Positions 2,860-53,742 of a stretch of 64,000 nucleotides of DNA are shown here, in pieces (position 1 is the first letter of the stretch; each line of letters opens with the position of its first letter). The DNA comes from Hydrogenimonas sp. (GTDB lineage: Bacteria; Campylobacterota; Campylobacteria; Campylobacterales; Hydrogenimonadaceae): the NCBI GenBank assembly GCA_003945285.1, contig AP019005.1, positions 806,001 through 870,000 on the forward strand, read 5' to 3'. The notes beneath the pieces were generated by a model. It was not told the origin of the DNA and made no database searches. It worked only from the letters and a program-made list of their open reading frames with translations. Made by a program: the position numbers and the translations under genes.

Positions 2860-2884
2860 ATCTATCCTTTCTCTGTTTGTTGCC

Positions 2885-2987
2885 GCCATGAGCAAAGCCC
2901 ATACTCCGGCAATAAGATCCTCTCCCCTCTACCCACTCCCTAAAACTGTGAAACAGGCGAAGAGCAGTTTTCGGGATGATGTTACAC
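2885..2987 (-). repeat. Dispersed repeat family 2, diverged single unit
   Basis: Read on the minus strand this begins GTGTAACATCATCCCGAAAA, continues with a TTTTAGGGAGTGGGTAGAGG stretch and ends in ATGGGCTTTGCTCAT. This matches, with divergence, the 94-bp tandem units at 52057-52244 and the unit at 47836. An AAAACTG/CAGTTTT inverted pair replaces the GAAATC/GATTTC hairpin. It lies immediately upstream of tpx. Boundaries are approximate. Confidence 0.6.
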
Positions 2988-3234
2988 TTTTTGCGTAAAA
3001 CCGGTGAGTGTGCAACTATTATATTTTTTTAATATAAAAACGATCTTAACCGGATTTTAAATATATCATGTCGGGCTTTTGGAGCCAGTGTTGTCTCAGG
3101 CAACGGAAATAGATAGGCGTTTACATAGATTTTACAAATATTTGCGATAATCATCCGAAAGAGATTGTTTCGTGACAGTACGGAACGCGGGCCGGTACAG
3201 AGTGGCGGTAATCTTGAAGATCGGGGAAATTGTG
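2988..3234. other. AT-rich divergent intergenic region
   Basis: This stretch separates tpx (minus) from the secreted protein gene at 3235 (plus). It carries ATTATA at 3018-3023, which read on the minus strand is a TATAAT box that could drive tpx through the repeat. On the plus strand a GATAAT near 3147 lies after TTTACA but with poor spacing. No gene or RNA was recognised. Confidence 0.4.
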
Positions 3235-8175: not shown

Positions 8176-8234
8176 GCGGGGATTTTATAGCAACCTATGT
8201 AAAAGTGTGATAAAATCGATCCCTTAAACTATAA

Positions 8235-8397
8235 CTGACCTTACGCAAAGTTTGTCACCCCCTGGATATGAGGGTAGAAGTATCGCTCGAAACCGTGTCT
8301 CTCCGCCAGGGGTGAAGGCGCCAGCGTTACATTTGGATTTTATACGGCGTCTGGCAGGGAAGATCCCGTTATGTGTGCAGATTTTGCGTAAGGTCAG
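8235..8397 (+). repeat. Dispersed repeat family 1, complete 163-bp copy
   Basis: This is the clearest member. The perfect 15-bp terminal inverted repeat CTGACCTTACGCAAA (8235-8249) is mirrored by TTTGCGTAAGGTCAG (8383-8397). The left half matches the other copies (TTTGTCACCCCCTGGATATG, then CGCTCGAAACCGTG). The right half (TGTGTGCAGATTTTGCG) matches the ends at 50236 and 57375. It fills the gap between lolA and secA and creates a false 62-residue extension upstream of the secA start. No target-site duplication is evident. Confidence 0.85.
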
Positions 8398-8437
8398 ACT
8401 AAAATACGTGAACCATGAACGAAAAGGTATAGCCGAA

Positions 8438-25935: not shown

Positions 25936-26326
25936 AAAGGTACGGCGGATGCTTGCGTGGAGTTTTCCATGAGGAAAGTCCGGGCTGCTGTGAAGCAGGG
26001 TTCCGTCTAACGGACGGCCACCGTAAGGTGAGGGACAGTGCAACAGAAAGCAGACCGCCCGCCCATATTTCGACCTTGACTTCTCTTGACTCTTGAGTAG
26101 ATCAGGAAAAAGTCCAATCATGGAAATATGGGCGGGTAAGGGTGAAACGGCGGGGTAAGAGCCCACCAGCGCCTTGAGTAATCATGGCGGCTATGTAAAC
26201 CCAACCCGCAGCAAGAAGGGTATGGTAAAAGCTTCACAATATTAACCCTTCGCTTGAACGTCACGGCAACGTGGCGGCTAGATAAATAAGCATCCTAGAC
26301 ATAACCCGGCTTACAGCCGTGCCTTT
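25936..26326 (+). ncRNA. rnpB: RNase P RNA (bacterial type A)
   Basis: Catalytic RNA that cleaves tRNA 5' leaders. Conserved blocks are GAGGAAAGTCCGGGCT near 25971, ACAGAAAGCAGACCGCC near 26043, GGGTGAAACGGCGGGGTAAG near 26140 and ACCCGGCTTACAG near 26303. The ends were set by the P1 helix: AAAGGTACGG at 25936-25945 pairs over ten positions (one G-U) with CCGTGCCTTT at 26317-26326. The P12 helix is long, about 14 perfect pairs (CCCGCCCATATTTC with GAAATATGGGCGGG), closing a loop of roughly 50 nt that contains further pairing. The length of about 391 nt is normal. Confidence 0.97.
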
Positions 26327-26586
26327 CTCAACTCTTAAGCCCGAAATATTTTACAAACAATGTTACCGGAAGATTTTTTATCAAAAGTATACATTTATCA
26401 AATTAATACATTGTATTTAAAATAAAGTCAAATTTTTTTTCTCTACCACTCCTCCTCTTGGAAAAAAAGTGTTACTTTTTTACCACATCGAGCAATCTTA
26501 AGCATCTATTTAATTTATTTATATGTTATTAAGGCCCTCTTTTTTAGAATCTAACTACCGAAACTAAATGTATGAAAGGGGTAACA

Positions 26587-47814: not shown

Positions 47815-47835
47815 AAAGCTGATGCTATGCAAAAA

Positions 47836-47929
47836 GCGTAACATCATCTCGAAATATACAATTTGAAGCTTTAGGGGGTGTAGGGGCGGCCGGTTCCCGC
47901 CAAAGCTTGCAAAGCTATGGCGGAGATGG
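47836..47929 (+). repeat. Dispersed repeat family 2, single unit
   Basis: GCGTAACATCATCTCGAAAT, then AGCTTTAGGGGGTGTAGGGG and GGTTCCCGCC, match the tandem units at 52057-52244. The third hairpin differs: AAAGCTTGCAAAGCTATGGCGG replaces the ATGGGC/GCCCAT stem, although AGATGGG is still present. It lies just after the DUF455 gene. The right boundary is set by analogy to the 94-bp unit. Confidence 0.65.
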
Positions 47930-48035
47930 GTTTTTAGAGGTGCCCTTATGTCTACAGATTATATATAAAAGCTTGATTTAACATTTACTTCAGTAATATA
48001 TAGCAACTATTTTTGATTTTACAGGAGCCCTGAAG

Positions 48036-49172
48036 ATGGCACGCAAGATCCCTTTTTACAAACCCGATATAGGGCAGGCCGAGAAGGCCCAGATAGAAGA
48101 GGTACTGGAACTAGAAGAGCTGCAGAAAGCCGAGGAGCTGGAGGAGGCTTTTCTGAAGAGAACCGGAGCGTCGTACGCTATATCGACCAACAGCGGTACT
48201 TCGGCACTCCATCTTTCGATGTGTGCCATGGACCTGAAGAGGGGAGACAAGATAATCTGTTCCGTAAACTCCTTTCCCTCCGTTCCGGAAGTGGTGCGCC
48301 ACTTTGATGCCGAGCCGATTTTTGTAGATATCGATCCGGAAGATTTCAATATAGACCTCGACGCCTTCGAGAAGGTATTGGAAGAGAATATCTCAAAAAA
48401 GCTCAAAGGCGCCATCATAAACCATGTCGCCGGACAGCCTACCGATCTTGACCGACTATACAAGATAGCCAAACGTTTCAATATCAAAATTGTCGAAGAC
48501 GCAAGTGATGCACTGGGTGGAACCTATGAGGGCAAACCTATAGGTGCTACCGGTGCCGATATAACCTGTTTCAGCTTTTCACCGCATATGAAAAACTCCG
48601 TTGCGAATGCCGGAGTCATGCTATGTGAAGACGAGACGCTATACAACAGGGGAATGCTGCTCAGAAACCACGCCATAGAGTCTTCAGGGTGGGACAAGTA
48701 CGGCAACCTGGAGTATATCTACGATGTCGTAGACATCGGATGGAAGTACGACATAAGCGAACTGGACGCGGCGTATGCGCTGGCACAGTACGGACGTCTC
48801 GAGAAGATGATCGGACGCAGAAAAGAGATAGCCAAAATGTACGATGAGGCTCTTGAAGGTGTCAACCATGTCTCTATCCCGGTTCGCAAAAGGGACCACA
48901 TATACCAGCTCTATATCATCAAGATAGACAGAAACAGGGACGGTTTCGCGAGAGAGCTGAAAGATAGAGGCATACACTGCGGTCTCCACTATATTCCGCT
49001 CCATCTGATGAGCTACTACAAGCAGAAGTACTCTCTCAGGGTAAACGACTTCCAGTCTGCTCTGCAGACCTACCAGCAGGTGCTCTCACTCCCTATATAC
49101 AACAATATGACGGATGCGGAGGTTGAGTATGTCTGCGATATGGTCAAAGAGGTGGCGGCCAAACATATTTGA
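48036..49172 (+). CDS. DegT/DnrJ/EryC1/StrS-family aminotransferase
   Basis: PLP aminotransferase that in this family adds amino groups to nucleotide-linked keto-sugars. The 378 residues show TNSGTSALHLSM (51-62), PSVPEVVRHFDAEPIFVDID, Asp155 in VEDASDALGGTYEGKPIG, the PLP Lys186 in FSPHMKNSVANAGV, and RDHIYQLYIIKID. The product sugar is unknown and no other sugar-modification genes are here. The stop overlaps the lpxK start by one base, so a lipid A or surface-sugar role is possible, as inference. Confidence 0.88.
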   Translation: MARKIPFYKPDIGQAEKAQIEEVLELEELQKAEELEEAFLKRTGASYAISTNSGTSALHLSMCAMDLKRGDKIICSVNSFPSVPEVVRHFDAEPIFVDIDPEDFNIDLDAFEKVLEENISKKLKGAIINHVAGQPTDLDRLYKIAKRFNIKIVEDASDALGGTYEGKPIGATGADITCFSFSPHMKNSVANAGVMLCEDETLYNRGMLLRNHAIESSGWDKYGNLEYIYDVVDIGWKYDISELDAAYALAQYGRLEKMIGRRKEIAKMYDEALEGVNHVSIPVRKRDHIYQLYIIKIDRNRDGFARELKDRGIHCGLHYIPLHLMSYYKQKYSLRVNDFQSALQTYQQVLSLPIYNNMTDAEVEYVCDMVKEVAAKHI

Positions 49173-51298: not shown

Positions 51299-51664
51299 GT
51301 GATGTCAAAAAAGATATACTGCCTGGCCCACTTCAAGCCGAAGGCGGGAAAAGAGATGGAGCTTTTCGAGCTGCTCAAATCTCTGGAGCCCGATACTCTC
51401 AGGGAAGATGGGTGCATTCAATATATAGTGACGAGAAAGATAGAGAATCCGTGCGCCGACGGCGAGGGGTTCCCGATAGTTTTCAACGAGATATGGGCGG
51501 ACAGAGATAGTTTCGAGGCGCACTGCAACCGCAGGGCGATAAGGGAGTTTTTCCAGAAGCAGTGTGTAGATGAAGAGGGGCTTGTGGAGGCTTACAATGT
51601 CTGTGTATACAGTGATGAACCGAAGGATTACGATGCACCAGTTCAGGGCTCGACCTGTGAGTAG
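51299..51664 (+). CDS. Antibiotic biosynthesis monooxygenase (ABM) domain protein
   Basis: The 121 residues form a single ABM or dimeric alpha-beta barrel domain: IYCLAHFKPKAGKEMELFELLKSLEP, CIQYIVTRKIENP and FNEIWADRDSFEAHCNRRAIREFF. Small proteins of this fold act on quinones or haem, or have no known function. The start is at the ATG of MSKKIYCL or one codon earlier; AGGAGGGG precedes it. The C-terminus overlaps cutA by 32 bp. Confidence 0.82.
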   Translation: MMSKKIYCLAHFKPKAGKEMELFELLKSLEPDTLREDGCIQYIVTRKIENPCADGEGFPIVFNEIWADRDSFEAHCNRRAIREFFQKQCVDEEGLVEAYNVCVYSDEPKDYDAPVQGSTCE

Positions 51665-51974
51665 ATACATTTTGGTTCTGGTTACCGCTCCGACTGCGGA
51701 TGAAGCGGAGCTCATAGCGCAGAAGCTGCTGAAAAAGAGGCTTGCCGCCTGTGTGAATATCGTACCGAATCTACTCTCGATATACCGCTGGAAAGGGAAG
51801 GTGGAGAGGGACGAGGAGTGTATGATGATTATCAAGACCGAAAAGAGGGTGCTCAAAAAGCTGGAGAAGAGGATAAAGAAGATGCACAGCTATGAAGTGC
51901 CGGAGATTCTCGTTTTCAGGGTCGAAGAGGGGGAGAAGGAGTATCTGAAGTGGATATCTTCAGTCGTGAAATAG
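51633..51974 (+). CDS. cutA: Divalent-cation tolerance protein CutA
   Basis: Trimeric small protein linked to metal tolerance, with an unsettled function. The 113 residues show YILVLVTAPTADEAELIAQKLLKKRLAACVNIVPNL, SIYRWKGKVERDEECMMIIKT and HSYEVPEILVF, all CutA marks. I chose the ATG at 51633, five bases after AAGGA; a GTG at 51657 is the alternative. It overlaps the ABM gene. Confidence 0.92.
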   Translation: MHQFRARPVSRYILVLVTAPTADEAELIAQKLLKKRLAACVNIVPNLLSIYRWKGKVERDEECMMIIKTEKRVLKKLEKRIKKMHSYEVPEILVFRVEEGEKEYLKWISSVVK

Positions 51975-52056
51975 CTCCTTTTGGATATAATCGCGCCAAA
52001 ATAACCGGACTACATTTTGCAAAACAGGCAAATCGATAACCGGCGTTGTGCAAACA

Positions 52057-52150
52057 GCGTAATATCATCCCGAAATCTGCGATTTCGCAGCTTTAGGAGG
52101 GTGCAGGGGACGGTCAGTCCCCGCCGGAAGATGGGCTTTGCCCGTCTTTC
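52057..52150 (+). repeat. Dispersed repeat family 2, tandem unit 1 (94 bp)
   Basis: The unit begins GCGTAATATCATCCCG and contains three hairpins: GAAATC-TGC-GATTTC, GGGGAC-GGTCA-GTCCCC, and an 11-bp stem in which AAGATGGGC faces GCCCGTCTT over TTT. It is followed at once by a second unit that differs at six positions. The arrangement lies between cutA and thrC. Confidence 0.9.
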
Positions 52151-52244
52151 GCGTAACATCATCTCGAAATCTGCGATTTCGTAGCTTTAGGGGGGTGCAG
52201 GGGACGGTCAGTCCCCGCCGAAAGATGGGCTTTGCCCATCTTTC
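52151..52244 (+). repeat. Dispersed repeat family 2, tandem unit 2 (94 bp)
   Basis: Exact length match to unit 1, starting GCGTAACATCATCTCG. Its third stem is perfect: GAAAGATGGGC pairs with GCCCATCTTTC over a TTT loop. A truncated third start, GCGTAACAT, follows at 52245-52253, about 23 bases before thrC. Confidence 0.9.
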
Positions 52245-52275
52245 GCGTAACATTAAATAGAAAGCAGGATGTTTT

Positions 52276-53742
52276 ATGAGATTCACAGAGACACGCGGTA
52301 ACGACTCGAAAAAGTCACCGGAAGTGAGCTTCAGCGAAGCAGTTTTGAGCCCGAGTGCGAGCTTCGGCGGTCTATATGTACCGAAAGCTCTTCCGCGGCT
52401 GGATTTCGATTTTTTTAAAAAACATGCAAAGAGCCGATACAAGGAGCTCTCTCTGGCTCTTTTCGAGAAATTCGATGTGGATATAGATAGAGGGGATCTG
52501 GAAGCGGCATTGAACAGGTATGACGCTTTCGACGATCCGAACGACCCGGTGCCGCTGGTGAAGGTGGAAGAGGATGCCTTCATCAGCGAACTGTGGCACG
52601 GTCCGACCCGCGCGTTCAAAGATATGGCCCTGCAGCCGTTCGGCTACATACTTTCTCGTCTGGCAGAAAAGCGCGGCGAGCACTATCTGATCATGGCCGC
52701 CACCAGCGGAGATACCGGGCCAGCGACACTGGAGACATTCAAAAACGCATCCAATGTAAAGGTCGCATGTCTCTATCCGGAGGGCGGAACCAGTGATGTG
52801 CAGAGGCTTCAGATGGTTACCGAAGATGCGGCGAATGAAAAAGTGATAGGTATACACGGCAACTTCGACGATGCCCAGACCGCACTCAAAAACCTGCTTG
52901 CGAGCGACAGCTTCAAAGCGAGGCTGAAAGAGAGCGGCACAGAGCTCTCGGCCGCCAACTCCGTCAACTTCGGACGTATAATTTTTCAGATCATCTACCA
53001 CGTCTACAGCTACCTGAAGCTTGTAGATCGAGGTGAAGTCTCGATGGGAGAGAGTGTCTACCTGATAGTTCCAAGCGGAAATTTCGGCAATGCGCTTGGA
53101 GGATATTATGCGAAAAAGATGGGACTGCCGGTAGAAAAGATATTGATATCATCTAATATCAACAATATTCTGACAGATTTGATAACGAAAGGGGAGTATG
53201 ACCTTACATCCAGATCGCTGGTTCAGACCACATCTCCCGCGATGGATATTCTTAAATCTTCAAACGTAGAGAGGGTACTTTTCGACAAGTTCGGCCCGGA
53301 GCGCACAAAGAGCCTGATGGACGAGCTGAACGAGAAGGGCAGGTACGTTCTGACAAAAGAGGAGCTCGATATTCTCAGGGAGGATTTCGACGCCACATTC
53401 AGCAGCGATGAAGAGGGTAGGGAGGTTATAGCCGAATATGCCAAGAGGGGCTATATCATGGACCCTCATACGGCAACCTGCTTCAAAGCGTATGAGAAAC
53501 TCCGCAAAAAGAGTCTCAAAAGCGTGATCTATTCGACTGCCGAGTGGACGAAGTTCAGCCCTACGGTCTGTGAGGCTCTCGGTCACAGAGTCGAACACGA
53601 CAGAGAGGCTCTGGAGTGGATCTCTTCTCATTACGGCGTGAGCGTTCCGAAGATGATAGCGGAGCTTTTCGAAAAACCGATAATCCATAAAACAGTGATC
53701 GACAAAGAGCGGATCGAAGAGGAGATTCTCGGGTTTATCTGA
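52276..53742 (+). CDS. thrC: Threonine synthase
   Basis: PLP enzyme that converts O-phosphohomoserine to threonine. The 488 residues show FSEAVLSPSASFGGLYVPKALP at the start, the PLP lysine in WHGPTRAFKDMALQPFG, MAATSGDTGPATLETFKN, NSVNFGRIIFQIIYHVYSY and IVPSGNFGNALGGYYAKKMG. Length is that of the long ThrC class. The tandem family 2 repeats lie directly upstream. The next gene starts at the last base of its stop. Confidence 0.97.
   Translation: MRFTETRGNDSKKSPEVSFSEAVLSPSASFGGLYVPKALPRLDFDFFKKHAKSRYKELSLALFEKFDVDIDRGDLEAALNRYDAFDDPNDPVPLVKVEEDAFISELWHGPTRAFKDMALQPFGYILSRLAEKRGEHYLIMAATSGDTGPATLETFKNASNVKVACLYPEGGTSDVQRLQMVTEDAANEKVIGIHGNFDDAQTALKNLLASDSFKARLKESGTELSAANSVNFGRIIFQIIYHVYSYLKLVDRGEVSMGESVYLIVPSGNFGNALGGYYAKKMGLPVEKILISSNINNILTDLITKGEYDLTSRSLVQTTSPAMDILKSSNVERVLFDKFGPERTKSLMDELNEKGRYVLTKEELDILREDFDATFSSDEEGREVIAEYAKRGYIMDPHTATCFKAYEKLRKKSLKSVIYSTAEWTKFSPTVCEALGHRVEHDREALEWISSHYGVSVPKMIAELFEKPIIHKTVIDKERIEEEILGFI

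Follow-up and report, generated by a model that had tools for sequence, protein, structure and literature searches.

The two hairpin-rich units upstream of thrC in Hydrogenimonas sp. are a copy of a MITE-like, non-autonomous transposable element. The explanation that best covers the observations as a whole, and one that we consider very probable, is that such an element, containing a folded core, inserted at thrC and was then doubled. In the window, which is the whole 64,000-nucleotide stretch of DNA analysed here, the units adjoin each other on the + strand at 52057-52150 and 52151-52244, as an earlier note on this DNA had described, and are 94% identical. The six differences counted there lie at 52063, 52070, 52088, 52098, 52127 and 52144; four fall outside the stems and two within, and none breaks a stem of hairpins H2 to H4. 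The two stem differences are A-U/G-U exchanges, A-U and U-A in unit 2 corresponding to G-U and U-G in unit 1, and the 11-bp stem already recognised in the note is entirely Watson-Crick in unit 2 and contains one G-U and one U-G pair in unit 1. H2 (7 bp) and H3 (6 bp) are the same in both. The hairpins occupy 52071-52087 (H2), 52106-52122 (H3, after a linker) and 52126-52150 (H4) in unit 1, and 52165-52181, 52200-52216 and 52220-52244, again with a linker between H2 and H3, in unit 2. A pattern for the core matched the window twice, against no match in 100 shuffles, and computed folding of the unit pair gave -95.5 kcal/mol (z -7.1).

The 94-bp stretch is the interior of a longer element, about 125 bp in length, which has inverted ends (ACTGAYGTTACGCAAA...TTTGCGTAACATCAGT). 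This longer sequence, which adds H1, a fourth hairpin, on the left, is the natural unit rather than the 94 bp. Matches obtained with nhmmer and a covariance model place the whole, internally duplicated element (left end, unit 1, unit 2 and right end) at 52039-52257 (+). H1, a left-end palindrome that is degenerate at thrC, lies at 52042-52066 (+) according to its position in the alignments of copies. What had been taken for the truncated start of a third unit turned out to be the right end of the element, GCGTAACATTAAA (52245-52257, +), in the position held by GCGTAACATCAGT in other copies. The 94-bp period spans the internal GCGTAATATCATC to the next GCGTAACATCATC, and GCGTAACATTAAA closes the array. 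The doubling would have followed the insertion, and its simplest origin is probably recombination between internal and terminal GCGTAAYATCA stretches (here GCGTAAYATCATC and GCGTAACATCA), which would generate the exact 94-bp period.

The element is located between a cutA-like gene (51570-51974, +; NCBIfam NF041095, E 7.5e-34, with 115.9 bits slightly below the cut-off of 120) and thrC, which encodes threonine synthase (52276-53742, +; TIGR00260, E 1.1e-79, exceeding the cut-off). It was absent upstream of thrC in all 13 related loci viewed, and the spacer between cutA and thrC, 301 nt here, is about 41-47 nt in six relatives in which cutA is adjacent. Upstream of thrC, TATAAT occurs in this context in 10 of the 13 related loci and TATACT in the other three; the corresponding GGATATAATCGCG (51983-51995, +) is a conserved -10-like element of a putative thrC promoter, and a simple sigma-70 scan reported no promoter in 51900-52400. 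The short spacers with TATAAT in the relatives indicate that the insertion took place between the -10-like element and the thrC ribosome-binding site, where the copy lies with its sense strand forward. Given the conserved TATAAT upstream, transcription into thrC likely passes both units, as had been proposed; the thrC 5' leader would then carry both as stable hairpins and leave the ribosome-binding site outside. Any effect of the units on thrC is one that we infer, and a local effect there is possible. No clear 5-bp duplication was seen at the flanks of this copy. As a clean insertion between promoter and gene, the locus lends itself to measurements of how such repeats act.

A DNA search of the genome (2,193,435 bp in one contig) returned 51 matches, and the genome-wide covariance-model search that the note had recommended, with a model built from 41 copies, found 107 copies at E<=0.1; 99 of these, all except the 8 weakest, were taken for the per-copy listing, 93 of them with their DNA sequence. 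The related units noticed previously elsewhere in the window are real: one copy, with a decayed 3' half, lies at 47818-47931 (+) upstream of an ORF at 48036, and another, strongly diverged, at 2872-3005 (-). Full copies are about 125 bp long, up to 162 bp in other genera, and consist, in this order, of the left end, H1 (the left end paired with its own inverse), H2, an unpaired linker, H3, H4 and the right end. The pattern TGAYSTTACGCAAA had 95 matches in this genome, a count that includes the second family described below (family B), and the reversed control had none. Since core-only copies without element ends are also present, the core may spread otherwise, or these copies may have lost their ends. 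Some core-only copies are arranged in tandem, at genome positions 1187981-1189833, 1218773-1218959 and 1224741-1224991, followed by genes for phosphofructokinase, a short protein without NCBIfam match, PEP synthase and a TIGR00730-family gene. Within such a tandem, the H4 arms of neighbours are identical.

For evidence of mobility we searched for target-site duplications, taking as input 60 of the 82 matches in genus relatives and the 48 best matches of this genome, of which 32 and 19, respectively, had recognisable ends. Perfect 5-bp duplications flanked 14 of the 32 copies from relatives, while 1000 shuffles gave a mean of 0.95 and a maximum of 4. In this genome they flanked 3 of 19 (shuffled mean 0.42, maximum 3); as shuffles reach this value too, this genome alone is no proof of mobility, and its copies are apparently older than those of the relatives. 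Nine further elements bounded by ends, 124-162 bp long and in loci mostly of other genera, all contained the core; five had perfect 5-bp duplications and eight matched in at least 4 of the 5 positions. The copies have these features of a MITE: they are short, dispersed in many places and free of a transposase gene, with inverted ends and a duplication of fixed length. Taken together, the 5-bp duplications in relatives and the absence from the 13 related thrC loci lead to the reading of a MITE-like, non-autonomous element. Its ends (ACTGAYSTTACGCA and its inverse) would be cut and joined in trans by a presumed transposase that leaves 5-bp duplications. A pattern search for an autonomous element with matching ends gave no candidate in nine genomes (this one, G007, G016 and six others), and no transposase was recognised by eye among the ORFs of the 3.8-kb stretch between two ends in this genome (L157).

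In order to determine how the hairpins are conserved, we compared observed and shuffled pairing in two sets of copies; the shuffles leave relatedness in, the alignments are fitted to the model and the cells counted are non-independent events. In 111 copies, nearly all from the genus, 95.5% of pair cells were paired (80.6% when shuffled) and 504 cells showed a double change, against 135. A second set of 95 copies, drawn almost entirely from other genera of the order, gave 90.7% against 67.2% and 683 against 245; this order-wide alignment omits 8 of 97 fetched loci, retains three matches from a genome of the same genus (G001) and consists mostly of loci fetched with a pattern on the linker. Alignments slid as a control were at most 55% paired. 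In the order-wide set, H2, H3 and H4 were paired in 97% of cells and H1 in 73%. Pairing despite sequence change is most evident in H4, whose arms read AAAGCTT, AAATAGC, TTTTCC, GAAAGAT, ACTAAAACG and others, each with a fitting partner. The earlier suggestion of selection on structure is thus supported by the double changes of the genus set and again by those across the order; additional copies did not show stems broken as often as loops.

The pairing also shows a preference on one strand. On the + strand of the genus set, G-U cells outnumbered A-C cells by 186 to 50, or 129 to 50 without a fixed G-U column, with ratios of 67:27 in H1, 13:4 in H2, 15:8 in H3 and 91:11 in H4. The order-wide set gave 166 to 63, or 103 to 61 without two G-U-rich columns, and by hairpin 63:47 (a weak excess) in H1, 13:5 in H2, 5:4 in H3 and 85:7 in H4, where 63 of the 85 G-U cells fall in two columns. 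This excess suggests that the + strand folds, either as RNA or as single-stranded DNA; a mutational strand bias could also be its source. Conservation is also among the highest in the unpaired linker, where the commonest base has a frequency of 0.97; this is partly by construction because most loci were fetched with the linker pattern. When orthologous insertions were compared for compensatory change in place, most of the listed pairs were false, their 'flank' being an adjoining element copy. Three pairs appear orthologous: L088/L091 has no change in stems and two at unpaired positions, L286/L256 has one T-A to C-G double change in H4 and mismatches in H1, and L252/L337 has eight changed pairs, two being A-U/G-U exchanges and six involving a mismatch. 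Three pairs are too few to count, and the last speaks partly against maintenance in place.

The core is distributed widely. Of 398 genomes in the order, 85 had the core at E<=1e-4; for near-complete genomes the count was 75 of 343, and for genera 23 of 87. The named genomes among the matches listed belong to Hydrogenimonas, Sulfurimonas, Sulfuricurvum, Sulfurovum, Sulfurospirillum and other Campylobacterota. Within the genus the copy number is patchy: of 18 genomes, this one among them, 14 have a match, and the counts range from 0 (G009, G013, G014 and G015) to at least 88. The linker pattern had one match among plasmids, in a Sulfuricurvum plasmid, and none among viral contigs. It also occurs in a contig of an Oscillospiraceae MAG (L299), where the covariance model detects no core and the match is probably due to chance.

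The note had compared the units to REP/BIME sequences or terminators. A palindromic repeat moved by a RAYT (Y1) transposase would agree with the many intergenic hairpin copies and with the single Y1_Tnp gene (256 aa) of this genome; Y1_Tnp proteins occur in 8 of the 18 genus genomes. That gene, however, is not flanked by the repeat, and the copy-rich genomes G001, G012 and G016 have no Y1_Tnp match, so the REP/BIME identity is unsupported. The 5-bp duplications and terminal inverted repeats moreover indicate a different chemistry, and we regard this identity as very improbable. The terminator reading is likewise unsupported, since TTTT follows the last stem (H4) within 8 nt in none of 204 copies and a scan found no terminator at this locus. 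The hairpins might instead be by-products of events at the DNA level, template switching perfecting palindromes without any selection on a folded strand; the common H4 arms of tandem neighbours and the small extra hairpins that several copies have in the loop of H2 or H4 would fit this. Such a process seems unlikely in view of the excess of G-U over A-C on one strand, the G-U pair found at the same place of H4 in about half of the copies, and the linker, which is highly conserved although unpaired. At gathering score, Rfam covariance models did not match the element; with a lax E-value nothing convincing appeared there, the best match at the units being Clostridiales-2 (15.4 bits, gathering score 58.6). 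Lax matches to microRNA models at 1066-1138 of L260 lie away from the element copy and were rejected. A bacterial RNase P RNA of class A is present in the window at 25937-26329 (+). In integron attC sites, R'' and R' boxes (RYYYAAC and GTTRRRY) enclose a folded site that adjoins cassettes.

The interesting part of this family is what maintains the fold of its core. The core could act as a cis-acting leader RNA, each folded core regulating the stability, translation or termination of the gene behind it, and the mobile ends having only helped it to spread. In this genome, with genes called by a simple longest-ORF rule and not taken from annotation, 38 copies between codirectional genes are in sense and 10 in antisense orientation (P 6e-5), or 33 and 10 after collapsing tandem copies (P 6e-4). 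Many copies end immediately before a ribosome-binding site, the gene start lies 10-60 nt beyond the element for 34 of 65 sense genes and, on the opposite side, for 6 of 37 antisense genes, and tandem core-only copies precede the phosphofructokinase and PEP synthase genes. The computed openness of the start region is also slightly higher in sense than in flipped orientation (0.495 vs 0.459, n=34, P 0.01), a small effect with P 0.09 against shuffled sequences. Across the order, however, where 79 of 94 copies were flanked by genes on both sides, there was no preference (21 sense and 23 antisense), so that sense orientation does not hold as a general rule and a general role as gene leader or regulator is unsupported. 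The genes downstream have no obvious common function, the copies lack an intrinsic terminator and their number in the genus is uneven, and we consider a leader role rather doubtful. In the reading of a MITE-like element, the core (H2, the unpaired linker AGCTTYAGGGGGKTGYA, H3 and H4) is strand-specific and compensatory changes keep its fold. Far more tentatively, we raise the possibility that the element itself needs this folded strand, as RNA or single-stranded DNA, for example as a structure recognised during mobilisation. Such a need would account for the preference for G-U on a single strand even though copies are not generally oriented toward host genes. If this is true, the element would be an order-wide parasite of Campylobacterales that is maintained through structure rather than sequence.

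Among known kinds, ERIC, Correia and BOX-type MITEs come nearest to the element, as far as the available text of the respective papers goes (PMC10969869, PMC2229807, PMC3049150); ERIC and Correia are set beside the element by description and not by alignment of consensus sequences. In the accessible passages, ERIC is likewise intergenic, folded and present across related families with very variable copy number (PMC10969869, PMC2229807), and its length of 127 bp (from the portion available of PMC2759123) is near the approximately 125 bp of the element. The two presumably differ in sequence, and the element stands apart by its 5-bp duplications, by a core that is separable and undergoes compensatory change, and by copies consisting of this core only. 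The Correia element of Neisseria (NEMIS/CREE) is described there as a MITE with inverted ends, often located just upstream of genes and folded in transcripts (PMC10969869, PMC2229807); for it, unlike for the element described here, RNase III cleavage and internal promoters are reported to have been shown. BOX and RUP of the pneumococcus are small modular or TIR-bounded repeats that also fold in RNA, confined, by the text available, to this species and near relatives (PMC3049150), while the element is order-wide. In the literature searched, mostly outside subscription papers, we found no element of this kind from Campylobacterota, and the Sulfurimonas passage in the available part of PMC12306157 is a row in a table of REP counts. 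The element is likely a new family of an already known kind, which adds a MITE-like family across an order of environmental Campylobacterota (Hydrogenimonas, Sulfurimonas, Sulfuricurvum, Sulfurovum and others). With a core of changing sequence and constant structure, it offers a test of whether selection can act on a small transposable element as a folded strand.

A second MITE-like family in this genome (family B, about 163 bp, ends ACTGACCTTACGCAAA; L158-L168) is represented in the window at 8234-8398 and from 57374 onward. It has the same ends as the element and, judged by eye, 5-bp duplications in its flanks as well; its interior is different, with no core seen. The G run of the linker has 5 or 6 residues in most genus copies and up to 8 in two, possibly by slippage; it has 5 in 91 of 92 order-wide copies, most of which were fetched by a pattern that requires at least 5. 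The extra loop hairpins (CTAAAGAAAC ... GCTTGTTTT or shorter, within the H2 or H4 loop) occur in this genome and in other genera, at L035, L273, L293, L317, L331, L333 and L337, and are possibly still smaller insertions or products of template switching.
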